Positions 9,615 to 22,998 of a stretch of DNA of 39,630 nt are shown here, piece after piece. The notes under the pieces are model-generated. The model worked only from the letters and a program-made list of their open reading frames with translations. It was not told the DNA's origin and did no database searches. Where the stretch lies: positions 1 to 39,630 of the forward strand of contig JARFRH010000182.1 in NCBI GenBank assembly GCA_029287355.1, written 5' to 3'. The stretch comes from Maribacter sp. (GTDB taxonomy: Bacteria > Bacteroidota > Bacteroidia > Flavobacteriales > Flavobacteriaceae). Each line of letters opens with the position of its first letter. The first letter of the stretch is position 1. The translations under genes and the position numbers were made by a program.

Positions 9615-10958
9615 ATGCCAAACCGCCTCATCACTTATTGGAAACTACACAAAGTAGCCATTTTGCTGGCATTACTGAGTTTGGCCTTCTATTCTACTTT
9701 CGCCTATCATTTAGAGCGAACAGATTTTGTAAAACTGCTCACTCTTTTTTCAGCGCTGTTTTTTTTATGCTTCAAGCTCATACAATTTGAAAAATGGAAT
9801 TTTAAATTCTTACTGAGCATAGGTATTCTTTTCCGTTTGATTTTTCTTATCGCAGAACCCAACCTCTCCCAAGATTTCTATCGTTTTATTTGGGATGGGG
9901 GTTTGGTCAAAGACTTTATCAACCCCTATTTGAACCTTCCGGATACCTTGATTGAACAATCTAATTTGGTGATTGCAAATGCCCAAGAACTCTATGTAGG
10001 CATGGGAAGTTTAAGTGCAAGACATTACAGTAATTACCCCCCGCTAAATCAACTCATTTTTGCACTGGCCTCTTTATTTGGCGGTAAAACGATTTTAGGT
10101 TCCATCGTTGCCATGCGTAGCATCATCATTTTCGCGGATGTTGGCATCTTTTATTTTGGGCGTAAGCTATTAAAGAATATCAATCAGTCACCGCACTTGA
10201 TTTTCTGGTATTTTTTAAATCCCTTGGTGATTATTGAATTGACGGGTAATCTCCATTTCGAAGGGGTCATGCTTTTCTTTTTTGTCTGGGCCTTGTACCT
10301 GCTATCAATTCATAAATGGCAATGGGCTGCAGTGGTTTATGCCTGCTCCATTTCGGTAAAGCTGGTGCCCTTATTGTTTCTACCCCTTTTCCTAAAGCAT
10401 TTTAACCTCAAGAAAAGCATTTCCTTTTACACTATTATCGGAGCCACTTCACTACTACTATTCGCGCCTTTTTATTCTTCGGAATTCATATCCAATTATT
10501 CCCAGACCATCGGCCTTTGGTTTTCCAAATTTGAATTCAATGCGGGACTTTGGAATGGCATCAAACATATTGGAATTCATTTGGATGTCAAACCTTGGGA
10601 ATTGATAAAGACCTATGGTAAGATAACTCCGGTATTAACCATCATTCTGGTCCTTCTTTTTACATTTCTTCGGAAAAATCAAAAACTTTCGGTGCTCATC
10701 ACTTCTATGCTTGGTATATTGACCTTGTATTTCTTTATGACCGCAACCGTGCATCCGTGGTATATCATCTTCTTGGTGCTTCTGACAATTTTCTCAAAAT
10801 ACCGCTATGCAATTGTGTGGTCGGCAGCTATTGTTCTGAGCTATTATGCCTATTCTTTGGCAGACTTCAAGGAAAACCTTTGGTTGCTTGCGCTTGAGTA
10901 TATCACAGTATATGCCTTTTTAATCTATGAATTAATTGCATATCGTAACAAAACATGA
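9615..10958 (+). CDS. Multi-pass GT-C-like glycosyltransferase (mannosyltransferase candidate)
   Basis: 447 residues, strongly hydrophobic, with about ten to twelve transmembrane helices. The first large loop holds LSQDFYRFIWDGG near residue 95, the acidic motif in the place where GT-C enzymes have their catalytic Asp, followed by INPY and by HYSNYPPLNQL, a pattern seen in PIG-M/ALG-like and bacterial GT87-like mannosyltransferases that use polyprenyl-phosphate sugars. The DPM1-like synthase at 5801-6511 could supply such a donor. This is inference from gene proximity; the acceptor could be a glycolipid or a protein glycan. Confidence 0.7.
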   Translation: MPNRLITYWKLHKVAILLALLSLAFYSTFAYHLERTDFVKLLTLFSALFFLCFKLIQFEKWNFKFLLSIGILFRLIFLIAEPNLSQDFYRFIWDGGLVKDFINPYLNLPDTLIEQSNLVIANAQELYVGMGSLSARHYSNYPPLNQLIFALASLFGGKTILGSIVAMRSIIIFADVGIFYFGRKLLKNINQSPHLIFWYFLNPLVIIELTGNLHFEGVMLFFFVWALYLLSIHKWQWAAVVYACSISVKLVPLLFLPLFLKHFNLKKSISFYTIIGATSLLLFAPFYSSEFISNYSQTIGLWFSKFEFNAGLWNGIKHIGIHLDVKPWELIKTYGKITPVLTIILVLLFTFLRKNQKLSVLITSMLGILTLYFFMTATVHPWYIIFLVLLTIFSKYRYAIVWSAAIVLSYYAYSLADFKENLWLLALEYITVYAFLIYELIAYRNKT

Positions 10959-11022
10959 AGTTTTTGTAAAAAAATCAGGCTGTTCTAGGTTAGTTCCAGA
11001 TAATTTGTACATTTACTCTGTA

Positions 11023-11106
11023 ATGAACGAGCAAAATAACATATTTACTTCCATGAGCAGCATTGCTCCAGTACGTCCATTCGCACCCCGTCGTCGTCGC
11101 CCGTAG
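11023..11106 (+). CDS. Arginine-rich leader peptide of the arg/pro operon (putative attenuator)
   Basis: A 27-codon ORF, ATG 11023 to TAG 11104-11106, beginning MNEQNN and ending FAPRRRRP-stop; an internal ATG at 11053 would give a 17-residue version. The four consecutive Arg codons (CGT CGT CGT CGC, 11089-11100) sit one codon before the stop, and a fifth Arg (CGT) is at 11074. The ORF stands 87 nt upstream of the first gene of an arginine operon. Codons CGT and CGC are read by one isoacceptor, so slow charging would stall ribosomes here. This is the classical layout of a transcription-attenuation leader. It is too short for ordinary gene callers. No homologue can be checked from here. Confidence 0.75.
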   Translation: MNEQNNIFTSMSSIAPVRPFAPRRRRP

Positions 11107-11146
11107 GGGTACTATACATTTCATGGAAATAGGTGAGTCCATTTCC
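11070..11146 (+). promoter_or_regulatory. Competing RNA hairpins in the arg-operon leader
   Basis: Complementary segments around the leader stop can form exclusive pairs. AGTAC (11070-11074) pairs with GTACT (11109-11113), and ACCCC (11085-11089) pairs with GGGGT (11106-11110), enclosing the Arg codons. Downstream, ATTTC-ATG-GAAAT (11118-11130) competes with GGAAAT (11125-11130) / ATTTCC (11141-11146). A ribosome stalled on the Arg run would block the ACCCC strand. I see no GC-rich hairpin with a long T-run before 11194 (only AATTTTT near 11170), so a Rho-dependent or translational mechanism is as likely as an intrinsic terminator. Stems are short and not folded computationally. Confidence 0.4.
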
Positions 11147-11193
11147 GCAAAAACCGTAAAATCATTTCGTAATTTTTCTAAAACACCACAGCA

Positions 11194-11808
11194 ATGGATA
11201 TTGTTGTCGCGAATCAATCACATTTTAAATACGCCCAGATCATCTGCGATACGATTGCCGATTCGGCAAAAGTTCGAGGTACGGGTATTGCCAAGCGTAC
11301 TCCGGAGTACATCCTTAAAAAACTCGAAAACGGCAACGGTGTCATCGCTTTGGACGGAGACACTTTTGCAGGTTTCTGTTATATCGAAGTATGGGGCCAT
11401 GAGAAATATGTAGCGAATTCGGGGCTCATCGTACACCCAGATTACAGAGCGCAAGGCCTTGCAAAGAGAATCAAACAAAAAATTTTTAAGCTATCCACCG
11501 AAAAATTTCCAGATGCCAAAATATTCGGTATCACTACGGGATTGGCCGTGATGAAAATCAACTATGAGTTGGGGTATAAACCAGTGACATTTTCAGAACT
11601 TACTGATGACCCAGAATTCTGGAAAGGCTGCCAGACGTGCAAAAACTTCGATGTACTTACCCGAACTGAACAAAAAATGTGCCTCTGTACCGGAATGTTA
11701 TACGACGCTACAACCAAAACAAAAAAAGAGAAAAAGGTGAATGGAAAAGCCTTTAAGAGATTGAAAAGTATCAAGGAAAGTTTATTCCTCAAAAAGAAAA
11801 CAAAATGA
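11194..11808 (+). CDS. GNAT N-acyltransferase, probable first enzyme of arginine synthesis (ArgA-like)
   Basis: 204 residues. The acyl-CoA binding motif A is VHPDYRAQGLAKRIK near residues 83-97 (R-x-x-G-x-A), with the remaining GNAT strands around it. Its place as the first gene of the arg operon, with ATGA overlap to argG, argues that it N-acylates glutamate. With the Ser-type transcarbamylase later in the operon, the acyl group may be succinyl. After the GNAT core there is an unusual cysteine cluster, CQTC, 13 residues, then CLC (near residues 149-166), which could bind zinc, followed by a Lys-rich tail (TKTKKEKKVNGKAFKRLK). It is far shorter than E. coli ArgA (443 aa) and lacks the kinase-like domain that mediates arginine feedback. 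Confidence 0.75.
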   Translation: MDIVVANQSHFKYAQIICDTIADSAKVRGTGIAKRTPEYILKKLENGNGVIALDGDTFAGFCYIEVWGHEKYVANSGLIVHPDYRAQGLAKRIKQKIFKLSTEKFPDAKIFGITTGLAVMKINYELGYKPVTFSELTDDPEFWKGCQTCKNFDVLTRTEQKMCLCTGMLYDATTKTKKEKKVNGKAFKRLKSIKESLFLKKKTK

Positions 11809-12995
11809 AAAAACTAGTTCTAGCATACAGTGGCGGATTAGACACCAGCTACTGCGCCAAATATTTATCTCAAGAACAAGGCTTTGATGTGCACGCAGTA
11901 AGCGTCAATACTGGTGGGTTCTCTAGAGAAGAAATCGCAACAATTGAAGAAAAAGCGTTGAAGTTAGGAGCTAGCACATATACATCCATCGATGCCGTTC
12001 AGACTTTTTATGAAAAAGTGGTCAAGTACCTCATCTTCGGTAACGTGCTAAAAAACAATACTTATCCCCTTTCGGTGAGTGCGGAACGAATTGTACAAGC
12101 GATCGAAATCGTAAACCACGCAAAAAAAATAGGAGCAAATTATATTGCACATGGTAGTACAGGAGCGGGTAATGACCAAGTGAGATTTGATATGATTTTT
12201 CAAATCATAGCCCCTGAAATCGAAATCATCACGCCTATTAGAGATAACAGCTTATCCCGTGAGGCGGAGATTGAATATCTAAAAGCAAACGGTGTAGACT
12301 ACGCTTGGGAAAAAGCGAAGTATTCTATCAACAAGGGACTTTGGGGAACTTCTGTTGGTGGTGAAGAAACGCTCACTTCGGAAAAGCCCTTGCCAGATTC
12401 CGCCTACCCAAGCCAGTTACAAGAAAAAGAACCTTCTGAAGTAAAGCTAACTTTTGAAAAAGGAGAGTTAGTCGCCATTGATGGTCTAAAGGATAATTCA
12501 GTCGCAAATATTGAAAAGTTAGAGGCTATGGCTTCAAAATATGCTATCGGCAGAGATATTCATGTGGGTGATACCATCATCGGTATTAAAGGAAGAGTCG
12601 GTTTTGAAGCCCCTGCATCCTTGATCATTATAAAAGCACACCATTTATTAGAGAAACATACGCTAACCAAATGGCAGCAATATCAAAAAGAACAACAGGG
12701 TAATTTCTACGGCATGCTCTTACATGAAGGGAATTATTTGGATGCGGTCATGCGGAATATTGAAGCTTTCTTAACGGATACACAAAAGACGGTTTCAGGA
12801 GATGTATTTGTGGGATTGTATCCCTTTCAATTTAGATTACATGGAATTTCCTCAAAACATGATTTGATGAATGCATCTTTCGGAAGTTATGGTGAAATGA
12901 ATAAAGGCTGGTCGGCAGATGATGCCAAAGGCTTTATCAAAATACTTTCTAATTCAGGAAAAATATACAACCATGTAAATCAAAAGGATGATTAA
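11805..12995 (+). CDS. argG: Argininosuccinate synthase
   Basis: 396 residues, the usual family length. The ATP pyrophosphatase P-loop LAYSGGLDTSYCAKYL is at residues 4-19, HGSTGAGNDQVRF near residue 118 is the citrulline/aspartate-binding motif, and the C-terminal region includes GDVFVGLYPFQFRLHG. The enzyme joins citrulline and aspartate using ATP to give argininosuccinate. ATG overlaps the GNAT stop (ATGA), and the 3' end overlaps argC by 8 nt, so it is translationally coupled on both sides. Arg codons are mixed AGA/CGA/CGT, unlike the all-CGT/CGC set in the leader peptide. Confidence 0.97.
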   Translation: MKKLVLAYSGGLDTSYCAKYLSQEQGFDVHAVSVNTGGFSREEIATIEEKALKLGASTYTSIDAVQTFYEKVVKYLIFGNVLKNNTYPLSVSAERIVQAIEIVNHAKKIGANYIAHGSTGAGNDQVRFDMIFQIIAPEIEIITPIRDNSLSREAEIEYLKANGVDYAWEKAKYSINKGLWGTSVGGEETLTSEKPLPDSAYPSQLQEKEPSEVKLTFEKGELVAIDGLKDNSVANIEKLEAMASKYAIGRDIHVGDTIIGIKGRVGFEAPASLIIIKAHHLLEKHTLTKWQQYQKEQQGNFYGMLLHEGNYLDAVMRNIEAFLTDTQKTVSGDVFVGLYPFQFRLHGISSKHDLMNASFGSYGEMNKGWSADDAKGFIKILSNSGKIYNHVNQKDD

Positions 12996-13962
12996 GGCAG
13001 GCATCATTGGGGGCTCGGGATATACTGGCGGTGAGCTAATCCGAATACTAATAAACCACCCTGAAGTGGAAATTGATTTTGTGTATAGTACAACACGAGC
13101 AGGAAAAGCCGTTTCTTCGGCTCATGCTGATTTATTGGGTACTACAAATTTGAACTTTGTTGGAAATATCAATCCCGAAATCGACCTGGTATTTTTGTGT
13201 TTAGGACATGGGAATTCTACAAAATTTTTGGACGAAAATCAGTTTTCCAAGAATACGAAAATCATTGATTTAAGCACCGACTTTAGATTACAAGTCGACT
13301 CCAATTTCGGTGGAAAGGAATTTATTTACGGCTTGCCAGAATTGAATACATCAGAAATTCGAGAAGCACGGTATATTGCTAATCCCGGCTGTTTTGCTAC
13401 CGCTATTCAATTAGCTCTGTTACCCTTAGCAAATGCAGGATTATTACAAAACGAGGTTCATATCAATGCCGTTACGGGAAGTACTGGAGCAGGTGTAAGT
13501 CCGTCTGGAACGACCCACTTCAGCTGGCGAAACAATAATGCTAGCTGGTACAAACCTTTTACCCATCAACATTTAGGAGAAATAAATGAAAGCCTGAAAT
13601 CAATGCAAAAAGATTCGGGAGAATTATTCTTCCTTCCCAACAGAGGGAATTTCACAAGAGGAATCTTAGCAACATCCTATACCAAATTCGAAGGAAGTGA
13701 AAAAGAAGTCGTTCAATTGTACAGAGATTTTTATGATGAAGCCGAATTCACTCAAATTTCGGAAGAGCCCATCCATCTAAAACAAGTCGTGAATACAAAC
13801 CAATGTCACATCCATTTGCATAAACATGATGACACTTTACTCATCACATCAGCTATTGATAATCTCCTAAAAGGTGCTTCAGGACAAGCCGTGCAGAATA
13901 TGAACTTGATGTTCGGTTTTGAAGAAGGTAAAGGCTTACACTTGAAGGCAGGGGTATTTTGA
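12988..13962 (+). CDS. argC: N-acetyl(succinyl)-gamma-glutamyl-phosphate reductase
   Basis: 324 residues. The NADP Rossmann motif IIGGSGYTGGELIRIL is at residues 6-21, and the active-site cysteine is Cys135 in IANPGCFATAIQLALL. HFSWRNNNASWYKPFTHQH and FFLPNRGNFTRGI follow in the catalytic domain. It reduces the acyl-glutamyl phosphate made by ArgB to the semialdehyde used by ArgD. Its start lies inside argG (8 nt overlap). It is followed by 154 nt of repeat-bearing DNA before proC, the first of two real gaps in the operon. Confidence 0.96.
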   Translation: MIKAGIIGGSGYTGGELIRILINHPEVEIDFVYSTTRAGKAVSSAHADLLGTTNLNFVGNINPEIDLVFLCLGHGNSTKFLDENQFSKNTKIIDLSTDFRLQVDSNFGGKEFIYGLPELNTSEIREARYIANPGCFATAIQLALLPLANAGLLQNEVHINAVTGSTGAGVSPSGTTHFSWRNNNASWYKPFTHQHLGEINESLKSMQKDSGELFFLPNRGNFTRGILATSYTKFEGSEKEVVQLYRDFYDEAEFTQISEEPIHLKQVVNTNQCHIHLHKHDDTLLITSAIDNLLKGASGQAVQNMNLMFGFEEGKGLHLKAGVF

Positions 13963-13987
13963 GCCTAAGAAGTTTAATGGAGTGATT

Positions 13988-14003
13988 GTCCCCTGAAGGG
14001 GAC
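13988..14003 (+). repeat. Perfect GTCCCC/GGGGAC hairpin downstream of argC
   Basis: GTCCCC-TGAA-GGGGAC is a perfect 6-bp stem with a 4-nt loop. There is no T-run, so it is not a convincing terminator. A similar CCCCT/AGGGG hairpin occurs at 36956-36971, again within about 80 nt of a copy of the 38-nt repeat. It may be an RNA-stabilising or processing element between argC and proC. Confidence 0.5.
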
Positions 14004-14056
14004 CCAAGAGTTGTTCTTACGCAATGTTGGATCACAAGTAAAAGTTTAAATAGAAA

Positions 14057-14094
14057 GATTCGCGACCCTACCTGTCGGCAGGCGGGTTCGCTGG
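14057..14094 (+). repeat. 38-nt dispersed palindromic repeat (copy B), argC-proC gap
   Basis: Begins GATTCGCGACCC and ends GGGTTCGCTGG, with CCTGTCGGCAGG at the centre (near-perfect inverted repeat CCTG/CAGG). It has the same length as, and aligns without gaps to, copy A (3582-3619) and copy C (36841-36878 on the minus strand). It is intergenic, 23 nt before the proC start. Confidence 0.7.
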
Positions 14095-14116
14095 AAAGAA
14101 AATAAAAAAGCCAACA

Positions 14117-14911
14117 ATGAAAATAGCCATCATAGGAGCAGGAAATTTAGGATTGTCCATAGCCAAAGGGGTACTTCACAGCAACGGTGCCACCAGCATG
14201 TATATGACCAAAAGGAACGTGGAAAGCATCAAAGAGTTTGAAAGCTACGGGAACGTATTGGTCACCTCAAATAATCGAGAAGCCGTTCAAAATTCCGATA
14301 TTCTAATTTTTGCAGTTCAGCCAGGGCATTTTGCGCAGATTTTAGAAGACATCAAAGATCTTTTGACCAAAAAACATGTCGTCATTTCAACGATTACGGG
14401 TTTTAGCATCGACAAAATAGAGGCGATCATCAGTGCAGAACAGCATATTATTCGAAGTATGCCCAATACCGCAATTTCCGTGGGTAAATCCATGACTTGC
14501 CTTTGTGCAAATGAAAAAGGGAAAAGTCGTATCGATTTGGCCAAAGCTATTTTCAATCGTATGGGGCATTCAATGGAAATTCCGGAAGAGCAAATGCAGG
14601 CGGCAACAGTAATCTGTGCTAGTGGAATCGCGTTCTGGATGCGCTTAATACGCGCCACTACCCAAGGCGCAATTCAATTGGGTTTTGACGCCAAAGAAGC
14701 ACAGGAATTGGCCATGCACACCTGCAACGGAGCGGCAAGTCTGTTAATAGAATCAGGCAATCATCCAGAAGAAGAAATTGACAGAGTTACCACCCCAATG
14801 GGTTGCACGATTAAGGGTTTAAACGAAATGGAACACCAAGGACTTAGCTCCTCCTTAATTCGAGGCATAGCAGCCTCATTTGATAAAATAACGGAGTTCA
14901 AAACAAATTAA
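14117..14911 (+). CDS. proC: Pyrroline-5-carboxylate reductase
   Basis: 264 residues, normal length. The N-terminal Rossmann motif IAIIGAGNLGLSIAKG binds NAD(P)H, ILIFAVQPGHF is the typical second motif, RSMPNTAISVGKSMTCL near residue 115 and GSG-like ICASGIAFW follow, and the C-terminal helical domain has TTPMGCTIKGLNEMEHQG, the substrate-binding TxPGGxT segment (here TPMGCT). It makes proline from pyrroline-5-carboxylate, the last step of the route started by ProB and ProA in the same operon. It also receives P5C from ornithine breakdown in some bacteria. The gene is flanked on both sides by repeat-bearing gaps, as if it were a separately inserted cassette. Confidence 0.95.
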   Translation: MKIAIIGAGNLGLSIAKGVLHSNGATSMYMTKRNVESIKEFESYGNVLVTSNNREAVQNSDILIFAVQPGHFAQILEDIKDLLTKKHVVISTITGFSIDKIEAIISAEQHIIRSMPNTAISVGKSMTCLCANEKGKSRIDLAKAIFNRMGHSMEIPEEQMQAATVICASGIAFWMRLIRATTQGAIQLGFDAKEAQELAMHTCNGAASLLIESGNHPEEEIDRVTTPMGCTIKGLNEMEHQGLSSSLIRGIAASFDKITEFKTN

Positions 14912-15036
14912 TACTGTCACATCGTGCGGAGTCGAGATACATTTTACCAAAAGGCCCGAACTAGACTAAGCCCGAACTGACTGACGTTAAAGAAAGATTC
15001 CCGCTTCCAAGGGAATGACATTAAAAGAAACAATAG
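14912..15036 (+). repeat. Repeat-bearing gap between proC and argD
   Basis: Starts ACTGTCACATCGTGCGGAGTC, which resembles the first unit of the composite repeat at 3544-3564 (ACTGTCTGAACAAGCGAAGTC). At 14996-15020 lies GATTCCCGC-TTCCAA-GGGAATGACA, an imperfect inverted repeat (GATTCCC/GGGAATG) whose first bases match the start of the 38-nt elements. No ORF of interest was seen. Flavobacterial intergenic repeats of this GATTCCCGC...GGGAATGACA kind are familiar from other genomes (from memory, not searched). Confidence 0.5.
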
Positions 15037-16161
15037 ATGAATTTATTTGATGTATACCCGCTATACGATGTAACACCGGTCTCCGCAAAGGGAATTGTAG
15101 TGATTGATGACAAAGACCAAGAATATCTTGATTTTTATGGAGGTCACGCAGTAATTTCCATTGGACATTCGCATCCGCATTATGTGAAGCGATTAAAAGA
15201 CCAATTAGATAAAATGGGTTTTTACAGCAACGCAGTTCAAAATCCGTTGCAAGTAGAATTGGCTACAAAATTAGGACAACTTTCCGATTGCGAAGATTAC
15301 AACCTCTTTCTATGTAATTCAGGTGCTGAAGCCAATGAAAATGCTTTGAAAATGGCCTCATTCCATACCGGAAAAACAAGAATAATCGCTTTCAAAAATG
15401 GGTTTCACGGCAGAACCTCCGCGGCAGTTGCCGCCACGGATAATGAAAAGATAAACGCGCCTTTAAACAAGCAACAAAAGGTAACCATTTTACCTTTGAA
15501 CGATATCGATGGTTTTACAAATGAAATAATAAAGGGAGATGTATGTGGGGTGATTCTGGAAGCCATTCAAGGTGTCGGAGGCTTGGATGAACCAACCAAT
15601 GAGTTCTATCAAAAAATCGCACTGCTGTGCAAAGAAAACAATGCAGTTCTGATTGCGGATGAAGTACAATCAGGTTTCGGACGTAGCGGTAAGTTTTTCG
15701 GATTCCAACATCACGATATCCAACCTGATATAATAAGCATCGCCAAAGGAATGGGCAATGGCTTTCCCGTAGGTGGAATTTTAATCCATGAAAGTATCAA
15801 AGCTTCCTACGGACTCTTAGGAACTACTTTTGGAGGCAACCATTTGGCCTGTGTCGCAACCTTATCGGTTTTAGAAGTCTTAGAAGAGGAAAATCTGATT
15901 GAGAATGCATCGCAATTAGGAATTTACTTTAATGAAAAGGCTGCCGAAATTCCGGATGTAAAAAGAGTAAAAGGCAAAGGACTAATGCTTGGCCTAGAAT
16001 TCGATTTTGAGGTTGCGGAATTACGCAAAAAGCTGATTTACGACCAGCATATGTTCACTGGTGGCGCAAAGGACAAGCATGTGCTTAGAATTCTACCTGC
16101 ACTGAACATTACCAAAGATCATCTTGATATTTTTTTCAAGGCCCTAAAAGCTGAACTATAG
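15037..16161 (+). CDS. argD: Acylornithine aminotransferase (class-III PLP aminotransferase)
   Basis: 374 residues, slightly short for the family (about 400). PLP-binding motifs are LFLCNSGAEANENALKMA (residues 90-107), FKNGFHGRTSAAVAAT, LIADEVQSGFGRSGKFF (near 205-221), and SIAKGMGNGFPVGG with the Schiff-base lysine at Lys237. It converts the acyl-glutamate semialdehyde to acylornithine. Its TAG overlaps the GTG of proA by one base (16161). Annotation pipelines may call this a generic aspartate aminotransferase-family protein; the operon makes ArgD the clear choice. Confidence 0.93.
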   Translation: MNLFDVYPLYDVTPVSAKGIVVIDDKDQEYLDFYGGHAVISIGHSHPHYVKRLKDQLDKMGFYSNAVQNPLQVELATKLGQLSDCEDYNLFLCNSGAEANENALKMASFHTGKTRIIAFKNGFHGRTSAAVAATDNEKINAPLNKQQKVTILPLNDIDGFTNEIIKGDVCGVILEAIQGVGGLDEPTNEFYQKIALLCKENNAVLIADEVQSGFGRSGKFFGFQHHDIQPDIISIAKGMGNGFPVGGILIHESIKASYGLLGTTFGGNHLACVATLSVLEVLEEENLIENASQLGIYFNEKAAEIPDVKRVKGKGLMLGLEFDFEVAELRKKLIYDQHMFTGGAKDKHVLRILPALNITKDHLDIFFKALKAEL

Positions 16162-17357
16162 TGAGCAAACAACTGAACATAGCGCAACGAAATACCGTTT
16201 TGACTTCGATGGCTCAATTCATCGTTGAAAGTCAAGCAGAAATTTTGACGGCCAACCAGATTGATTTGGATCGTTATTCGGGGGATGATATTTCAATGCG
16301 AGACAGGTTAAAACTTGACCAAGGTAAAATTGATGGTATGATTCTGTCATTGGAGCAGTTAGCCTCCGAACCAGACCCTTTGGGTATTGAACGATTTGCA
16401 ACTACTCATGAAAACGGGATGCATATCAGCAATAAAACAGCTCCGTTTGGCACCATTCTTATTATCTATGAATCTAGGCCAGACGTAACTATAGAAGCCG
16501 CTGGAATCGCCTTTAAATCAGGAAATGAAATCCTGTTAAAGGGAGGAAAAGAATCATTGAACAGCAACTTGGTATTAGTAAAACTCTGGCATAAAGCGCT
16601 TCAAGAAAATGATTGTGATACAAACTGGGTTACCTATTTACAATTCAACAGAACCCAAACACAGGCTTTTCTAGAAAAGCCCACCCAAAAATTAGACTTG
16701 ATTGTTCCTCGAGGCGGTGAAAGATTGATTGCTTTCGTAAAACAACATGCTACTTGCCCAGTAATCGTAAGTGGTCGTGGAAATAACTTTGTATATGTAG
16801 ATTCGGAGGCCGATTTGCAAATGGCTTTGGATATTATCGTCAATGCCAAGACCACAAAAATATCTGCCTGTAATGCCTTAGATAAGGTTTTAGTCGCTTC
16901 AAACTTGGGTAGAAAGCATCAATTTTTACAACAACTGATTCTAGAATTGCAAAAAAGCAAAGTAGAAATTTTTGCTGACGAAGCGCTGTCAAGTCTAGCA
17001 GGAACACTTCCGATTACAGATGAAAATATGTGGCATGAAGAATTTCTAGATTATAAAATTGCCATCGGGCAAGCATCTGACCTAGGGGATGCCATTACCA
17101 AAATAAACACCTATGGCGGTGGGCATTCGGCATCGATAGTAACCGCTAATGATGAAAAAGCGAACACGTTTATGGAATCTGTAGATTCGGCTGCAGTCTA
17201 TCACAATGCGTCCACGCGATTTACCGATGGCGGTCAATTCGGGCTGGGCGGCGAATTGGCGATTAGTACGGACAAATTACATCAAAGAGGGCCTATTGGT
17301 CTTCAGCATTTGGTAACCAATAAATGGTATGTGAAGGGTAACGGACAAATCAGATAA
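16161..17357 (+). CDS. proA: Glutamate-5-semialdehyde dehydrogenase (gamma-glutamyl phosphate reductase)
   Basis: 398 residues from GTG at 16161; the next ATG would remove 16 residues of the conserved N-terminal helix, so GTG is preferred. Family motifs: IIYESRPDVTIEAAGIAFKSGN (near 101-122), LIVPRGGERLI (180-190), and the catalytic cysteine Cys237 in KTTKISACNALDKVL. YHNASTRFTDGGQFGLGGE is the C-terminal signature. It reduces glutamyl-5-phosphate with NADPH. It lies one base into argD and 2 nt before proB. The order proA-proB is the reverse of the E. coli proBA operon. Confidence 0.95.
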   Translation: MSKQLNIAQRNTVLTSMAQFIVESQAEILTANQIDLDRYSGDDISMRDRLKLDQGKIDGMILSLEQLASEPDPLGIERFATTHENGMHISNKTAPFGTILIIYESRPDVTIEAAGIAFKSGNEILLKGGKESLNSNLVLVKLWHKALQENDCDTNWVTYLQFNRTQTQAFLEKPTQKLDLIVPRGGERLIAFVKQHATCPVIVSGRGNNFVYVDSEADLQMALDIIVNAKTTKISACNALDKVLVASNLGRKHQFLQQLILELQKSKVEIFADEALSSLAGTLPITDENMWHEEFLDYKIAIGQASDLGDAITKINTYGGGHSASIVTANDEKANTFMESVDSAAVYHNASTRFTDGGQFGLGGELAISTDKLHQRGPIGLQHLVTNKWYVKGNGQIR

Positions 17358-17359
17358 CT

Positions 17360-18124
17360 ATGGCCAAGAAAAGAATCTTACTGAAGGTTGGCACGAACAC
17401 CCTGACCAAGGAAACCGACCAGATTTCCCGAGGTAAAATCGAGGATATCGGAAGGCAGATTTCCAAACTGAAAGACCATTATGAATTTATCATCGTAAGT
17501 TCAGGTGCCATAGCTGCAGCCAAACAATTCGTGAAACTGGAGCATAACGGCCAAGAAATCAATGTAAAACAGGCGTTGGCGGCAATTGGCCAACCTCATT
17601 TGATGCGTATTTTTCAAGAGAATTTTAGAGAGCTGGGCTTGTTCACTTCGCAGTGCCTATTATCCTATTCCGATTTTGAGAAGCCTGAATCACAGGAAAA
17701 TATCAAGAATACGATTAATGTCTTAGTGGCCAATAATTTTATTCCTATCATTAATGAAAATGATACCGTTTCCACGGATGAAATACAGTTTGGTGACAAT
17801 GATAAACTAGCTGCTTTGGCCGCAGCCTTATTGCAAGTTGACTTGCTTTTAATAGCTACCAATACGGATGGAATTTATACGAAAACATCCATTACAGAAG
17901 GCAATCCCAAAACCATCGCAAGGGTTAACGACATCGATGAATTGAAAAAAGAAATCAGTTTAGAAAAATCTTCTCAAGGAACCGGTGGAATGCAGTCTAA
18001 AATACAAGCAACCACGATTGCACAAAACGCTTCGATTGAAACATGGATTGTCAACGGGTTAAAAGACAATTTTATTACTGATGCCATTGACGGTGTTTCT
18101 AATCATACTAAAATAAAAGCATGA
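17360..18124 (+). CDS. proB: Glutamate 5-kinase, short form without PUA domain
   Basis: 254 residues forming only the amino-acid-kinase domain. ILLKVGTNTLTK at residues 5-16 is the phosphate-binding start, IIVSSGAIAAAKQFV near 45-59, PIINENDTVSTDEIQFGDNDKLAA near 132-155 binds glutamate, and GTGGMQSKIQAT near 210 is the nucleotide loop. The RNA-binding-like PUA domain that extends E. coli ProB to 367 residues is absent. In E. coli that domain affects magnesium need and proline feedback rather than catalysis. The 3' end overlaps argF' by 4 nt (ATGA). Confidence 0.94.
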   Translation: MAKKRILLKVGTNTLTKETDQISRGKIEDIGRQISKLKDHYEFIIVSSGAIAAAKQFVKLEHNGQEINVKQALAAIGQPHLMRIFQENFRELGLFTSQCLLSYSDFEKPESQENIKNTINVLVANNFIPIINENDTVSTDEIQFGDNDKLAALAAALLQVDLLLIATNTDGIYTKTSITEGNPKTIARVNDIDELKKEISLEKSSQGTGGMQSKIQATTIAQNASIETWIVNGLKDNFITDAIDGVSNHTKIKA

Positions 18125-19056
18125 AACATTACCTATCAATAAAAAATATCGACTCCCTTCCCGACTGGGTATCGGAGGCTAGAGAACTAAAAGAGAACCC
18201 GGTCGCTCATAAAGCACTAGGTGCTGGAAAAACAATTTGCTTGTTATTCTTCAATAACAGTTTGAGAACACGATTAAGCACCCAAAAAGCAGCGATGAAC
18301 TTGGGTATGGAAGTCATGGTGATGAACTTCGGAAGCGAAGGTTGGCAGTTGGAATTCGAGGATGGGGCGGTCATGGACCAAGGCAAATCAGAACATATTA
18401 AAGAAGCGGCTAAGGTTGTTTCCCAATTTTGTGATATTGTGGCCATACGCGCTTTTGCTTCCCTAAACGACAAAGAAAAAGATGAAGCCGAAGTTGTTCT
18501 AAATGGATTCGAAAAATATGCTTCCGTTCCTGTTGTCAATATGGAAAGTTCAGCAGGGCATCCGTTACAAGCTCTTGCTGATGCTATTACCTTGGATGAA
18601 CAAAATAAGAAGGCAAAACCAAAAGTAGTACTTTCTTGGGCACCACATCCAAAAGCATTACCGCATGCCGTAGCCAATTCTTTTGTGGAAATGATGCAAT
18701 TACAAGTTGCGGATTTTGTGATTACACATCCTGAAGGATACGAATTGAATCCTGAAATCACCAAAAATATTCACATTGAACACGATCAGCAAAAAGCATG
18801 CGAAAATGCAGACTTTATTTATGTAAAAAACTGGAGTAGCTATTCGAATTATGGAAAGGTATTGCATCAAGATTCTGACTGGACGATGACAACGGAAAAA
18901 CTTGGTCTTGCTAAATTTATGCATTGTTTACCCGTTCGAAGAAACGTTGTTGTGGAAGATGCGGTTTTAGATGGAGGGCAATCGTTGGTTATTGAACAAG
19001 CAAATAATCGAACGTATGCGGCACAAGTAGTTTTGAAAAAGATATTAGAAAATTGA
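18121..19056 (+). CDS. argF': N-acylornithine transcarbamylase, predicted N-succinylornithine specific
   Basis: 311 residues. The carbamoyl-phosphate motif is FNNSLRTRLSTQKAA (residues 45-59), and VNMESSAGHPLQALAD and FMHCLPVRRNVVVEDAV are the other family signatures; the C-terminal end is AAQVVLKKILEN. The overall pattern matches Bacteroides fragilis ArgF' (succinylornithine transcarbamylase) rather than normal ornithine transcarbamylase, which has STRT in the first motif. Residue 90, in MDQGKSEHIKEA, is Ser. In the known pair of enzymes this position is Pro90 in B. fragilis SOTCase and Glu92 in Xanthomonas AOTCase, and published changes of Glu92 to Ser, Pro, Ala or Val gave succinyl specificity. 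I infer a succinylated pathway. The SDR gene begins 5 nt after the stop. Confidence 0.93.
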   Translation: MKHYLSIKNIDSLPDWVSEARELKENPVAHKALGAGKTICLLFFNNSLRTRLSTQKAAMNLGMEVMVMNFGSEGWQLEFEDGAVMDQGKSEHIKEAAKVVSQFCDIVAIRAFASLNDKEKDEAEVVLNGFEKYASVPVVNMESSAGHPLQALADAITLDEQNKKAKPKVVLSWAPHPKALPHAVANSFVEMMQLQVADFVITHPEGYELNPEITKNIHIEHDQQKACENADFIYVKNWSSYSNYGKVLHQDSDWTMTTEKLGLAKFMHCLPVRRNVVVEDAVLDGGQSLVIEQANNRTYAAQVVLKKILEN

Positions 19057-19060
19057 TAGG

Positions 19061-19810
19061 ATGAGCTTGAAGCTAAAAGATAAAATCTGTATTGTTACCG
19101 GAGCGACTAGTGGTATGGGAAAAGCCATTGCCGAAAGGTTTCATGGGGAAGGAGCGAAACTCGTATTATCCGGAAGGAATGAAGAAAGGGGCAATACATT
19201 GGCCAAATTGCTTGACAATGCGGTTTTCTTTGCCGGGGATGTCAGTGACCCAAATTACAATGAACAACTTGTCAAAATAGCCATTGAAAATTTCGGCAAA
19301 CTTGATATTGTATCAATGAATGCGGGTATCTTAGGATTGGGTAGTGTGACGGACCTATCGACCGAAGATTGGCATAAAACCTTAGACACAAATCTGAGTT
19401 CCATTTTTTATCTTTCTAAATACGCAATTTCCCATTTGAAAAAACAGCGTGGAACAATTTTGATCAATGCCTCGATTGCAGCCTACAAGAGTTTCCCGAA
19501 CCATCCGGCATATTGTGCTTCAAAAGCAGGCTCGGTAGCCCTTATGAAGCAATTGGCTTTGGAATATGCCCCAGAAATAAGAATAAATGCCATTTGCCCT
19601 GGGCCAGTGGACACACCTTTGATTTGGAATTCCGCCAAGGCATTCGAAAACCCCGAAATGGCCGTCGAAAATGTTGGAAAGGCAACTTTGATGAAGCGTT
19701 TGGGGCGACCTGACGATGTGGCTAATCTGGCCTTGTTCCTTGTTTCAGATGAGGCATCATGGATTACAGGAACGGCAATGACCATAGATGGGGGAATATT
19801 AAACACATAG
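19061..19810 (+). CDS. SDR-family NAD(P)-dependent oxidoreductase inside the arg operon
   Basis: A 249-residue classical short-chain dehydrogenase: cofactor motif TGATSGMGKAIA (residues 13-24), NAG in MNAGILGLGS (near 87), catalytic Ser in INASIAAYKS, and YxxxK in PAYCASKAGSVALM (near 150), ending with the usual GTAMTIDGGIL. It starts 4 bases after the argF' TGA and ends one base before argB, so it is fully embedded in the operon. No step of arginine or proline synthesis needs an SDR, so it may be a passenger or act on a side metabolite. The substrate is unknown. The sequence is intact and its composition looks like its neighbours. Confidence 0.9.
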   Translation: MSLKLKDKICIVTGATSGMGKAIAERFHGEGAKLVLSGRNEERGNTLAKLLDNAVFFAGDVSDPNYNEQLVKIAIENFGKLDIVSMNAGILGLGSVTDLSTEDWHKTLDTNLSSIFYLSKYAISHLKKQRGTILINASIAAYKSFPNHPAYCASKAGSVALMKQLALEYAPEIRINAICPGPVDTPLIWNSAKAFENPEMAVENVGKATLMKRLGRPDDVANLALFLVSDEASWITGTAMTIDGGILNT

Positions 19811-19811
19811 A

Positions 19812-20591
19812 ATGAATCAAGAACTTGCTATCATAAAAATAGGCGGCAATGTCATCGAGAACAAAACAGAGCTAACAAAGTTCTTAGCTCTTTTTGCGCA
19901 CCTAAACGGACATAAAATATTAGTACATGGTGGTGGAAAACTTGCTACCCAACTCGCCTCCAAACTCGGTGTAACATCCAAAATGGTAGGAGGGCGGAGA
20001 ATTACCGATACCGAAACACTTGAAGTAATCACGATGGTATACGCTGGATTGACCAACAAGAATATTGTAGCACTTTTACAAGCGAATAATTGCAATGCCA
20101 TCGGATTAAGTGGTGCTGATGGCGATGTCATTCAAGCACACAAACGACCTGTCGGAGAAATCGATTATGGTTTTGCTGGGGATGTAGATGGGGTGAACAC
20201 CCCAATGATTTCCAAATTACTGGACGCCGGTCTAACTCCCGTTTTTTGTGCCATGACCCATGACGGAAACGGACAGCTATTGAATACCAACGCAGATACC
20301 ATTGCTTCCGAGCTGGCAATTGGTATGAGTGAAATCTATGATACCACCTTGTATTATTGCTTTGAAAAGAAAGGGGTTTTAAAGGATATCAAAGATGAGA
20401 ATTCCGTGGTAAAACATATCGATTCAAATACTTATAAGCAATTGTTGGTAGCAGGTATTATCGCAGACGGAATGCTGCCAAAATTGGAAAATTGCTTTCA
20501 TGCCTTAAATAAAAAAGTGAATAAAGTATGTATCGGACATCCTTCGATGTTAGACCCTGAAAATGAACTTTTTACAACGATTACCTTATAA
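19812..20591 (+). CDS. argB: N-acylglutamate kinase
   Basis: A 259-residue amino-acid kinase. IIKIGGNVIENKTEL at residues 6-20 and LVHGGGKLATQLASKLG near 38-54 hold the ATP phosphate-binding glycines; NAIGLSGADGDVIQAHKR near 96-113 and LNTNADTIASELAIGM near 157-172 match the substrate and nucleotide sites. It phosphorylates the acylglutamate made by the GNAT. The N-terminal kinked helix that forms arginine-sensitive hexamers in many feedback-regulated NAGKs is absent (the protein begins MNQELAIIKIGG), suggesting an arginine-insensitive enzyme. That leaves room for control at the gene level. argE starts 1 nt after its stop. Confidence 0.95.
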   Translation: MNQELAIIKIGGNVIENKTELTKFLALFAHLNGHKILVHGGGKLATQLASKLGVTSKMVGGRRITDTETLEVITMVYAGLTNKNIVALLQANNCNAIGLSGADGDVIQAHKRPVGEIDYGFAGDVDGVNTPMISKLLDAGLTPVFCAMTHDGNGQLLNTNADTIASELAIGMSEIYDTTLYYCFEKKGVLKDIKDENSVVKHIDSNTYKQLLVAGIIADGMLPKLENCFHALNKKVNKVCIGHPSMLDPENELFTTITL

Positions 20592-20592
20592 A

Positions 20593-21657
20593 ATGACACA
20601 ACAACAACTTACTGATAAGGCTTTGGATTTATTGAAGCAATTGATTTCAATACAATCATTCTCTTCCGAAGAGGATAAAACCGCCGAAGCCATTCAAGAT
20701 TGGTTTAAGGAATTTGATATTCCTTTTGAACGTATTCATAACAATGTAATCACCAAAAATAAATATTGGGACGAAAGTAAACCCACCTTGCTTTTGAATT
20801 CGCACCACGACACGGTCAAACCAAACAAGGCCTACACCAAAGACCCGTTTCATCCACATATCGAGGATGGCAAGTTATACGGTTTAGGTAGTAATGATGC
20901 AGGAGGTTGTTTGGTTTCACTTATCGCAACGTTCACCCATTTATACTCCGCCGAAAACTTGAATCATAATATTCTAATGGTGGCCTCTATGGAAGAGGAA
21001 AATGCAGGTGCAAACAGCTTAAGGGGATTATTGCCGAGTCTTCCGGAAATTGATGTTGCGATAGTTGGCGAACCAACATCGATGAATTTGGCCATTGCCG
21101 AAAAAGGTTTGGTAGTCTTTGATGCCGTTGTAAAAGGAACGCCTTCCCACGCCGCACATCCTAATGAAAATAATTCTATTTACAATGCTATTGAAGTGTT
21201 GAAGTGGTTTAAGAACTATAAATTCGAAAAATCATCGGAGGCTTTGGGCGAAGTTAAAATGACGGTCACTCAAATTAATGCCGGTAGTCAGCACAACGTA
21301 ATTCCCGCACAGGTCGAATTGGTTATCGATGTCCGAGTCAACGATGCATATTCGAACAAAGAAATTGCAGACTTGTTGAAATCTGAAGCGCCCTGCGAAT
21401 TGAAAGAACGCGGATTGAAATTGAACTCATCCAAAATAGAAAAAGACCATCCATTGGTAAAATCGGGAAGTGCCTTGGGTAGAAAAACCTACGGCTCTCC
21501 AACCTTATCCGACCAAGCGGCATTGACCTGCCAATCACTGAAATTAGGCCCAGGAGACAGCACCCGATCCCATTCCGCAGATGAGTATATTTACGTGCAC
21601 GAAATCGAGGAAGGGATTGATTTGTATATCAAAATCCTGTTAGGCTTTTTACGATGA
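20593..21657 (+). CDS. argE: N-acylornithine/acylcitrulline deacylase (M20 peptidase family)
   Basis: 354 residues from ATG 20593. An in-frame ATG at 20563 would overlap argB by 29 nt and add a non-conserved decapeptide, so the later start is preferred. M20 metal ligands: His in LLLNSHHDTVKP, Asp in YGLGSNDAGGCLV, the Glu pair in MEEENAGANS, and VGEPTSMNLAIAEKG; a C-terminal His lies in DSTRSHSADEYIYV. It removes the acyl group after carbamoylation, so the real substrate here should be an N-acyl-citrulline. The gene is followed by 63 nt of AT-rich repeat DNA before argH. Confidence 0.92.
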   Translation: MTQQQLTDKALDLLKQLISIQSFSSEEDKTAEAIQDWFKEFDIPFERIHNNVITKNKYWDESKPTLLLNSHHDTVKPNKAYTKDPFHPHIEDGKLYGLGSNDAGGCLVSLIATFTHLYSAENLNHNILMVASMEEENAGANSLRGLLPSLPEIDVAIVGEPTSMNLAIAEKGLVVFDAVVKGTPSHAAHPNENNSIYNAIEVLKWFKNYKFEKSSEALGEVKMTVTQINAGSQHNVIPAQVELVIDVRVNDAYSNKEIADLLKSEAPCELKERGLKLNSSKIEKDHPLVKSGSALGRKTYGSPTLSDQAALTCQSLKLGPGDSTRSHSADEYIYVHEIEEGIDLYIKILLGFLR

Positions 21658-21672
21658 ACAAAAATGAATAAT

Positions 21673-21713
21673 CAGTTTACAATTAATCATTGTTTACTGT
21701 TAATTGCTAATTG
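21673..21713 (+). repeat. AT-rich short repeat pair in the argE-argH gap
   Basis: Two imperfect copies of GTTTACNNTTAAT (21675-21687 and 21692-21704) lie in the 63-nt gap, flanked by AATTAAT/AATTG-type inverted bits. No promoter or terminator could be recognised. This is probably simple intergenic repeat DNA; the operon may read through it. Confidence 0.35.
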
Positions 21714-21720
21714 AATAAAA

Positions 21721-22998
21721 ATGAAACTCTGGGACAAAGGCTTTAGCACCGACAAAAAAATAGACCACTTTACCGTGGGCAATGACCGCGAACTCGATCT
21801 GCACCTAGCAAAATATGATGTGATCGCTTCAAAAGCACATGCCAAAATGTTAGGCAAAATAGGACTGCTAACGGAAAAAGAAACTACCGCCCTAGTCGGC
21901 GAATTAGAGAACATTTCTAACAAAATCGAAGAGGGTTCTTTTACCATTGAAGATAATTTTGAGGACATGCATTCCAAAATCGAGTTTCAGTTGACCTTGG
22001 CATTGGGAGATACCGGTAAGAAAATACATACCGCGCGTTCGAGAAACGACCAAGTTCTTGTGGCCATGCATTTGTATTTAAAAGATGAACTCACTGAAAT
22101 CAAATTGCAAACCAAAAATTTGTTTGATTTATTATTGAACTTGGCGGATAAATATAAAAGAGTCCTCTTGCCTGGTTATACACACCTACAAATCGCAATG
22201 CCTTCTTCCTTTGGGTTATGGTTTTCTGCCTTTGCGGAAAGTTTAATCGACGATTTGTATTTTATCGATGCTGCTTATAAGGTTGCGGACCAAAATCCAT
22301 TAGGGAGTGCCGCAGGTTATGGAAGTTCTTTTCCTATAGACAGAACCTTTACGACCGAAGAAATGGGTTTTGATACGATGAAATATAATGTCGTAGCTGC
22401 ACAAATGGGTAGAGGAAAGGTCGAGAAAGCGACTGCATTCGGTATGGCAAATATCGCCGCTACCCTCTCCAAAATGGCCATGGACATATGTTTGTATATG
22501 AGTCAGAATTTTGATTTTATTTCCTTCCCAGACGAATTGACTACAGGTTCAAGCATTATGCCGCACAAAAAAAATCCTGATGTTTTTGAGCTAATTCGTG
22601 CCAAGTGCAATAAGCTTCAAGCGGTTCCCAATCAATTGACCTTAATCATCAACAACCTGCCTAGTGGGTATCATCGTGATCTGCAATTGGTGAAAGAGAT
22701 TATTGTTCCTGCTATTCAAGATATGAAGGCCTGCCTTGAAATTCTTACTTTCAGCCTGAGGGAAATCCGCATCAAAGAAAACATCTTGGAAGACCCGAAA
22801 TACGATTACCTATTTAGTGTTGACACCTTGAACGAGTTGGTCCAAAATGGGGTTCCTTTCCGTGATGCGTACAAACAAATGGGGCAGGAAATTCAAGCAG
22901 GTACATTTACCCCGAAACGTAATATCAAACATACCCATGAAGGTAGTTTAGGCAATTTATGTTTGAATGAGATTCGAGCTAAGATGAAAGCAGTTTAG
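21721..22998 (+). CDS. argH: Argininosuccinate lyase
   Basis: 425 residues, a little shorter than E. coli ArgH (457). KLWDKGFSTDKKIDHFT opens the protein, HTARSRNDQVLVAMHLYLK (near 101-119) carries the substrate-binding residues, LPGYTHLQIAMPSSFG (near 152-167) has the conserved His, and GSSIMPHKKNPDVFELIRAK (near 278-297) is the fumarase/aspartase-superfamily signature with the catalytic serine loop. It splits argininosuccinate to arginine and fumarate and closes the operon. No convincing terminator was seen in the 140 nt after it. Confidence 0.96.
   Translation: MKLWDKGFSTDKKIDHFTVGNDRELDLHLAKYDVIASKAHAKMLGKIGLLTEKETTALVGELENISNKIEEGSFTIEDNFEDMHSKIEFQLTLALGDTGKKIHTARSRNDQVLVAMHLYLKDELTEIKLQTKNLFDLLLNLADKYKRVLLPGYTHLQIAMPSSFGLWFSAFAESLIDDLYFIDAAYKVADQNPLGSAAGYGSSFPIDRTFTTEEMGFDTMKYNVVAAQMGRGKVEKATAFGMANIAATLSKMAMDICLYMSQNFDFISFPDELTTGSSIMPHKKNPDVFELIRAKCNKLQAVPNQLTLIINNLPSGYHRDLQLVKEIIVPAIQDMKACLEILTFSLREIRIKENILEDPKYDYLFSVDTLNELVQNGVPFRDAYKQMGQEIQAGTFTPKRNIKHTHEGSLGNLCLNEIRAKMKAV

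Follow-up and report, generated by a model that had tools for sequence, protein, structure and literature searches.

Background

The closest described systems with which the leader presented here can be compared are the his, thr, ilv and trp attenuators of the E. coli type, in which a short open reading frame (ORF) carries a run of codons for the end-product amino acid, hairpins lie alongside it and the cognate genes follow 3' of it; arginine is not a classical case of this kind. The arginine leader is alike in each of these features, but no conserved antiterminator/terminator pair was found in it, its Arg run and stop codon lie in a hairpin themselves, it possesses an extra, nearly invariant hairpin, and its predicted transcript is nearly leaderless. 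In pyrBI-type attenuation the ribosome itself blocks folding of the terminator hairpin, no antiterminator is involved, and UTP is sensed via polymerase pausing. The likeness to the present locus is the ribosome-blocked hairpin; in the arginine leader, amino acid codons would set the position of the ribosome instead.

Sensing of arginine by leader Arg codons has been described in other bacteria. In the Salmonella speF leader orf34, which is compared here by its description, consecutive Arg codons sense arginine, but the controlled gene is described as encoding ornithine decarboxylase rather than an enzyme of arginine synthesis, and the output as depending on Rho and RNase G (PMC6386406). The rbfL leader ORF of Staphylococcus aureus is likewise described as sensing arginine limitation by its Arg codons; unlike those of the present leader, these are the rare codons AGA and AGG, the stalled ribosome blocks the ribosome-binding site of the next gene, and starvation lowers rather than raises expression (PMC13009471). 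For Flavobacterium psychrophilum, clues have been reported for leader-peptide attenuation before amino acid operons, with pheA and hisG elements conserved in the family; the main text of that report uses the word arginine once, for cyanophycin, and has no arginine leader among its named elements (PMC9723704). No arginine-biosynthesis leader peptide in Bacteroidetes was found among the matches listed from the open-licence literature.

The leader described here lies in a 39,630-nt stretch of a Maribacter sp. genome, which is referred to below as the window. Comparison with related loci of marine flavobacteria gives good support to a codon-reading arginine leader ahead of arginine genes, one that appears to work like a leader-codon attenuator and in which the exclusive hairpins of the classical type were not found.

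The leader ORF, its predicted promoter and the downstream genes

The leader ORF occupies positions 11,023 to 11,106 of the forward strand (ATG at 11,023, TAG at 11,104–11,106) and comprises 27 codons, encoding MNEQNNIFTSMSSIAPVRPFAPRRRRP followed by the stop. Its five Arg codons (R18 and R23–R26) are all CGT or CGC, and the peptide ends RRRRP-stop. The ATG of the first downstream gene, which encodes a GNAT acetyltransferase, is at 11,194, with 87 nt between it and the leader stop codon. The window sequence bears out the description in an earlier note, made from the letters of the window, of a 27-codon, Arg-rich ORF with five CGT/CGC Arg codons located 87 nt before the first arginine gene. Readthrough of the leader stop into the GNAT gene was considered and rejected, as the frame hits a TGA within AGGTGA.

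Upstream of the ORF, a −7 promoter box of the TAnnTTTG type, TACATTTA, is located at 11,008–11,015 on the forward strand. The flavobacterial consensus box is reported to sit at −12 to −5 (PMC9723704), and with the box so placed transcription is predicted to start near 11,020, leaving a 5' UTR of only ~3 nt before the leader ATG. A box of the TA[CA][AT]TT[TA][GA] type is present in 80 of the 81 leaders of the near set (defined below), where it starts 14–17 nt before the ATG (15 nt in 53 of them); no −33 TTG conserved at one position was found in these 81 leaders.

The leader is followed by a 12-gene arginine/proline cluster, as judged by best Pfam and NCBIfam matches. The first gene, at 11,194–11,808 on the forward strand, matches Pfam Acetyltransf_1 and Acetyltransf_7, with weak NCBIfam and PDB matches. 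It matches GNAT models only and has no AA_kinase domain, in agreement with the earlier proposal that it lacks the regulatory domain of ArgA. The remaining genes span 11,805–22,998 on the same strand and were identified by NCBIfam and Pfam matches as argG, argC, proC, argD, proA, proB, a carbamoyltransferase gene, a short-chain dehydrogenase (SDR) gene, argB, an ArgE/DapE deacylase gene and argH. The carbamoyltransferase is of the N-acetylornithine type by best match; the argD, carbamoyltransferase and ArgE/DapE matches fall below the NCBIfam cut-offs. The short-chain dehydrogenase gene (19,061–19,810) sits inside the arginine cluster, between the carbamoyltransferase gene and argB. The ORFs of the cluster mostly overlap or lie a few bases apart, the largest gaps being 154 and 125 nt around proC, and the genes are probably co-transcribed as an operon.

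Conservation of the leader ORF

The leader was compared in two overlapping sets of loci, whose counts are not additive. The near set consists of the window and the 80 nearest relatives of its GNAT protein (the best 80 of at least 452 relatives in one protein scan). The family set was drawn from 149 family genomes, 99 of which have a GNAT match; upstream DNA was examined for 98 loci, including the window and leaving out a weak match in genome G089, and several of the family-set counts rest on the 81 of these 98 leaders in which the motif of hairpin hp2 (below) was found.

The earlier note had suggested looking in relatives for a short, Arg-rich upstream ORF and for frameshifting substitutions in it. 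Such an ORF is present with its frame unbroken in all 81 near leaders, being 25–28 codons long in 80 of them and 22 codons in one. The stop codon (TAA in 74, TAG in 7) begins 86–98 nt 5' of the GNAT start. Some peptide residues (e.g., APVRPF) are shared in the near set to a greater extent than in the wider family, where the peptides range from nine residues (MRRFYPRRP) to more than 30 (36- and 38-residue forms) and vary widely in sequence, with the terminal Arg codons kept. In ~17 family leaders with a stop codon at hairpin hp1 (below), the open frame has only GTG or TTG and no ATG, which counts against an ORF in those leaders or at least blurs it. In at least nine family leaders the stop codon lies ~3–6 codons 3' of hp1 (e.g., RRLVRV, RRTSVRV, RRTFVRA and RRPLGV, each followed by the stop), with RR or RxR still at the hp1 5' arm; the script that placed family stop codons mis-framed some rows (e.g., L116, L136, L155 and L173). 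That the Arg codons stay at the hp1 5' arm when the stop shifts suggests that it is these codons, and not the stop, that are pinned, which favors codon reading over an arrest peptide.

Codon-level conservation of the Arg run

The proposed sensor is the run of four Arg codons, CGT CGT CGT CGC, at 11,089–11,100 on the forward strand. Counted back from the stop, Arg occupies codon −2 in 81 of 81 near leaders (100%), codon −3 in 78 (96%) and codon −4 in 78 (96%), while in the other two frames none of the final 12 codon positions has more than 19% Arg. In the family set the corresponding values are 96% for codon −2 and 90% for codon −3, based on 67 of the 81 leaders; the remaining 14 lack a stop codon where the script expected one. 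Only the first of these three codons, −2, takes part in hp1. At the two outside the hairpin, CGT and CGC have replaced one another repeatedly, with minimum counts of 13 switches (codon −3) and 19 switches (codon −4) on a GNAT protein tree with 100 members.

The class of codon is also kept. CGY (CGT or CGC) makes up 329 of the 339 leader Arg codons in the near set (97%) versus 224 of 1,123 (20%) in GNAT and argG of the same loci, a comparison in which the rows are related, so that chi-square is indicative only, and in which argG is incomplete in some loci. When the last, hp1-bound Arg codon of each leader is dropped, the proportion is still 248 of 258; across 17 genes of the window, 52 of 173 Arg codons are CGY. 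As the leader frame, the amino acid and the codon class have all been retained, the data support selection at the level of the codon. A theory of selective tRNA charging has been described as predicting biased choice of regulatory codons in leaders (PMC1183508). With its clustered end-product codons and adjoining cognate genes, the locus resembles the ribosome-mediated attenuators in the broad sense.

Conserved RNA hairpins

Three hairpins were recognized in the leader, designated hp0, hp1 and hp2. The first, hp0 (GAGCA-GCAU-UGCUC, 11,055–11,068, forward strand), is a small hairpin inside the ORF. In the near set 296 of 400 cells are paired, versus at most 185 when the arms are slid by one or two columns, and its both-sided changes are no clearer than in the slid registers; this gives moderate support to hp0 as a conserved hairpin, weaker than that for the other two.

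Hairpin hp1 (11,098–11,111, forward strand) is short and takes in the end of the ORF: its 5' arm is formed by the last Arg codon and the Pro codon, its loop holds the stop codon and its 3' arm is GGGU. Consensus folding gives CGCCC-GUAA-GGGUG, with a linker after hp1 that is U-rich in many relatives, and the median energy is −7.2 kcal/mol in the near set and −6.2 kcal/mol in the family set. Its pairs are kept in 93.6% of cells (89 sequences), and most of them are invariant, so that covariation is slight and the case for hp1 is one of conservation; in the window the outermost pair is disrupted. Among the 81 near leaders, 74 have a GUAA loop and the other seven, which include the window, have GUAG; other forms occur in the family. 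The placement of the codon run, with the last Arg codon in the hp1 5' arm, is such that a stalled ribosome would cover an arm of a conserved hairpin.

Hairpin hp2 (11,125–11,146, forward strand) consists of a six-pair stem with an A bulge and the nearly invariant sequence AGGUGnGUCC. The earlier note had proposed a search for covarying stems in relatives, and the hp2 stem is one: all six pairs have changed on both sides, with 97.4% of cells paired (89 sequences). In the register fixed by AGGUG, 471 of 486 pairs are formed over the 81 family leaders, as compared with a maximum of 421 in 2,000 shuffles. On the tree, at least 30 changes of state among standard pairs were counted (5, 8, 5, 9, 0 and 3 for the six pairs), one-sided changes included; an independent-pairs sign test on the tree had too few cases for significance. 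The distance from the stop codon to AGGUG is 25–29 nt in 65 of the 81 family leaders, and the other 16 comprise nine in which the stop lies 3' of hp1 and a remainder that the script had for the most part placed in the wrong frame.

Taken together in an alignment of 36 sequences, hp1 and hp2 have 96.4% of cells paired and six pairs with both-sided changes; none of 500 shuffles reached four of the five measures used, and three of 500 reached the fifth. The alignment of 89 sequences, which was made with the covariance model and is thereby fitted to the structure, has 96.3% of cells paired, eight pairs and 94 cells with both-sided changes, and no shuffle of 500 that was as good on any of the five measures. 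The window leader on its own folds no better than its shuffles (z = −0.02), and the evidence for structure therefore comes from the comparison of relatives.

Two further ideas about hp2 were considered and set aside. Docking of hp1 on hp2 by a GNRA loop was rejected, given that the hp1 loop varies while the GG-CC pairs of hp2 hardly change. A role for hp2 as a common genome element was rejected as well: the pattern AGGTGNGTCC has 14 matches in the genome versus 12 for reversed-pattern controls, and only the match in the leader has a 6/6 stem.

Distribution of the element and search for ArgR

The whole core element, at 11,090–11,147 on the forward strand, is matched by both covariance models built for it, R1 and R2, with an E-value of 2.2e-13 in its own genome, where it is present in a single copy (the next best match has E 4). 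R1 matches 92 of the 98 family loci upstream of GNAT, 36 of these sequences having been used to build it; at E up to 0.5 there were 93 matches, one of them spurious, and six of the 98 loci had none. R2, run under stricter filters that lose weak matches, identified the element in 94 of the 149 family genomes with an E cut-off of 0.01; the E-value was 2e-7 or lower in 92, each genome carrying a single strong copy. A search of 395 genomes across the phylum with the same kind of filters produced 16 strong R2 hits, including that of the window, all of them in Flavobacteriaceae; ten additional hits, with E-values between 4e-4 and 7e-3, are probably due to chance. No R2 match was found in the 19 listed genomes of one genus (g127); of this genus, the presence of GNAT was examined in genome G127, where the gene was found. 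Rfam has no match at gathering score in the window, and over 10,950–11,250 four matches at E up to 10 lie far below gathering.

Three loci show other arrangements. In genome G084, which has no GNAT match, the first gene is replaced by an ORF with a sub-threshold Acetyltransf_1 match (locus L208, ~958–1,539), argG being next; the element is kept, and its leader frame ends SVRRNFSRRP-stop. Locus L179 has no model hit and has an Arg-ending ORF, FDFRRRLLA-stop, which by eye lies over a GCC-UUUU-GGC hairpin with a U-run, followed by a differently looped second hairpin; these may represent a remote variant of the element. In G127 (locus L174), where GNAT is present and no model hit was obtained, an upstream ORF encoding MNKISLHITSLSRTISPGTSPEVRMLSI and a stop lies behind the box TACTTTTG and has two Arg codons only; it may be a decayed or a different arginine leader.

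A search with PF01316 identified no ArgR in the window's own genome or in the 149 family genomes, while a control search did give matches in Bacteroides and others, 9 of the 14 named genomes in all. The locus is not assigned to an ArgR regulon, as no ArgR was found encoded in its genome. The suggestion in the earlier note that arginine is sensed at the level of the genes by way of a leader is strengthened by these results: an Arg-codon ORF is conserved before arginine genes, selection has evidently acted on its codons, and no ArgR match was found in the family genomes searched.

Other amino acid leaders and a tandem Arg-codon ORF

The same genome possesses leaders of other amino acid operons. 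A his leader encoding MKNKNTHHHLSTGCQAR and a stop (locus L229, 393–446) is followed by a 12-pair terminator. A branched-chain leader before ilvD, MKVYENLVNVLLIVPSTG and a stop (L230, 510–566), is followed by a long hairpin and UUUU by eye, where the scan flagged a different stem. The thr leader before thrA (L232, 777–866) ends TTATTTPLG-stop and forms CCCC-UUU-GGGG, with no terminator by the scan. This architecture is close to that of hp1 in the arginine leader, which hints at a shared flavobacterial design.

A second Arg-codon leader, uORF1, lies in tandem ~210–300 nt before GNAT in 46 of the 98 family loci by a loose rule, a count that probably takes in some different ORFs as well. Loci with uORF1 include L105, L109, L111, L113, L120, L122, L126, L133, L138 and L152, among others; in L122, for example, it encodes MKNLKNKIRCTVPGFPVRFRRRY followed by the stop. 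In a consensus fold of 29 sequences, the start of uORF1, AAAAAUAAAAUACGU, can pair with ACGUnAUUUUAAUUUUUU located after its stop, so that the Arg run is enclosed by an A/U stem resembling a terminator.

Proposed mechanism and alternatives

The reading that we favor, and consider rather probable, is that of a ribosome-read arginine leader in which a stall on CGY codons keeps hp1 from forming and transcription goes on, whereas ample arginine allows hp1 to form. Transcription would begin just before the leader ATG, with the ribosome trailing RNA polymerase. A shortage of charged tRNA-Arg able to read CGY would halt the ribosome in the terminal Arg run; from codon −3 or −2 its footprint would be large enough to cover the hp1 5' arm and keep hp1 open, and polymerase would continue into the arginine genes. 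With ample arginine, the ribosome would reach the stop codon in the hp1 loop and leave, hp1 would fold and expression would drop. The likeliest output would be premature termination of transcription, located in hp1 or immediately 3' of it and either weakly intrinsic or assisted by a factor such as Rho. In this scheme hp2 would be a constant part beside the gate, and it is probably read by some factor, as its loop hardly varies. Ribosome stalling, the direction of the response, termination as the output and the role of hp2 are all proposed from comparison of sequences, and a weak point of the scheme is that it gives no firm reason why hp2 should be the most conserved part of the element.

The search for terminators bears on the proposed output. 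No canonical terminator or terminator-like site was found in the window, but 36 of the 81 near leaders and 38 of the 81 family leaders have one, versus 3.3 and 4.6 in crude control shuffles of 2-base blocks; the other 45 near and 43 family leaders have none. Of the terminator-like stems, 34 of 56 in the near set and 37 of 53 in the family set end at the position of hp1, and 22 of the near-set stems lie inside the ORF. An intrinsic terminator at hp2 was rejected on the ground of too few T residues after it (at least five T in eight positions in 1 of 81 near and 8 of 81 family leaders). Because terminator-like stems often end at hp1 and few T follow hp2, hp1 is the better candidate for a stop signal, though a weak one.

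With the same Arg-codon sensor, the output might instead be produced 3' of hp2, in the stretch before the GNAT start, by RNA decay or by termination that depends on Rho, access being shaped by the two hairpins. The stretch from hp2 to the start codon has a composition that would suit this, with 7% G and 16–19% C in both sets over a median of 49 nt, and the scarcity of U after hp2 points the same way. The Salmonella orf34 leader is described as using two consecutive Arg codons together with Rho and RNase G (PMC6386406). An A/U-rich, G-poor stretch before start codons may however simply reflect translation initiation in this phylum, and the stretch in question lies beyond the cover of the stalled ribosome; we regard this output as less likely, but as the main rival to termination near hp1.

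Classical attenuation of the trp/his type, with mutually exclusive antiterminator and terminator hairpins, appears improbable, even though the terminal codon run, the position of the ORF beside hairpins and the cognate genes are what it calls for, and the his and ilv leaders of the same genome, with the 12-pair terminator of the one and the long, perfect hairpin and UUUU of the other, speak for it. The earlier note had proposed exclusive hairpins around the Arg codons and the stop. Both hp1 and hp2 proved to be real and conserved, but they are compatible with each other, and no conserved competing helix or antiterminator was identified either by a mutual-information (MI) covariation screen or by ensemble folding of full and cut (5'-truncated) leaders, so that the mutually exclusive helices of the classical type were not found. 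The MI screen over the whole leader returned the pairs of hp0 and hp2, plus scattered single pairs of the kind produced by shared ancestry. In ensemble folding, hp2 is the dominant pairing both in full leaders, where its probability exceeds 0.5 in 62% of the near and 56% of the family set, and in leaders cut at the stop codon in mimicry of the ribosome (65%); the similar values in the two states indicate that the gate does not obviously switch hp2. The window is, moreover, without a terminator-like site.

Translational control, in which the VRPF part of a ribosome-free leader would hide the GNAT start codon and a stalled ribosome would keep that start open, is very unlikely. The fold of the window does pair GUCCAUU with AAUGGAU at the GNAT start, and a run of at least six pairs is possible in 53 of the 81 near leaders; when the pairings were re-dealt 200 times, the average was 43 leaders and the highest count 51. 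This excess, counted in the near set, is small, though, and relatedness alone can yield it, and hp1 and hp2 are left unexplained. There is a similarly slender chance that the regulator is RNA only, hp1 and hp2 forming a small aptamer or protein-binding site and the RRP end of the peptide being a by-product of hp1. The nearly invariant AGGUGnGUCC of hp2, which is not common in the genome, would suit such a site, but codons −3 and −4, outside hp1, stay Arg while their third base changes freely, and the reading frame is kept in 81 of 81 leaders.

Least probable is an arrest peptide, in which nascent RRRP-stop would stall the ribosome on free arginine or another ligand: the Pro immediately 5' of the stop codon in all 81 near leaders does recall TnaC, which ends RP-stop, but this pattern also follows from hp1, the upstream residues and lengths vary across the family with only the terminal Arg codons well conserved, and the stop is displaced by ~3–6 codons in the genomes noted above (at least nine).

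Implications for arginine control in the family

A broader version of the favored codon-reading scheme can be put forward tentatively, as something we consider possible but somewhat doubtful: a family-wide arginine attenuator that is free of an antiterminator, in which hp2 is read by a factor acting in trans, one candidate being the tail of 16S rRNA, and which in many genera takes the form of a tandem two-stage gate. The 3' tail of 16S rRNA contains the sequence GGAUCACCU, and the AGGUG and GUCC of hp2 could pair with it around the single variable base, a match that was noticed post hoc. Ribosomes of Bacteroidia have been reported to keep this tail sequestered (PMC9976891). If the pairing is real, a Shine-Dalgarno (SD)-like sequence would serve in regulation in a phylum in which the anti-SD is kept hidden by the ribosome.

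The arginine leader is a compact element that joins a sharp CGY codon signature to one nearly invariant hairpin. Through it, arginine synthesis would join the operons under leader-codon control, and it may be a case of direct gating of a hairpin by the ribosome, free of an antiterminator. It is proposed as a means of controlling arginine synthesis in a large bacterial family whose searched genomes yielded no arginine repressor.
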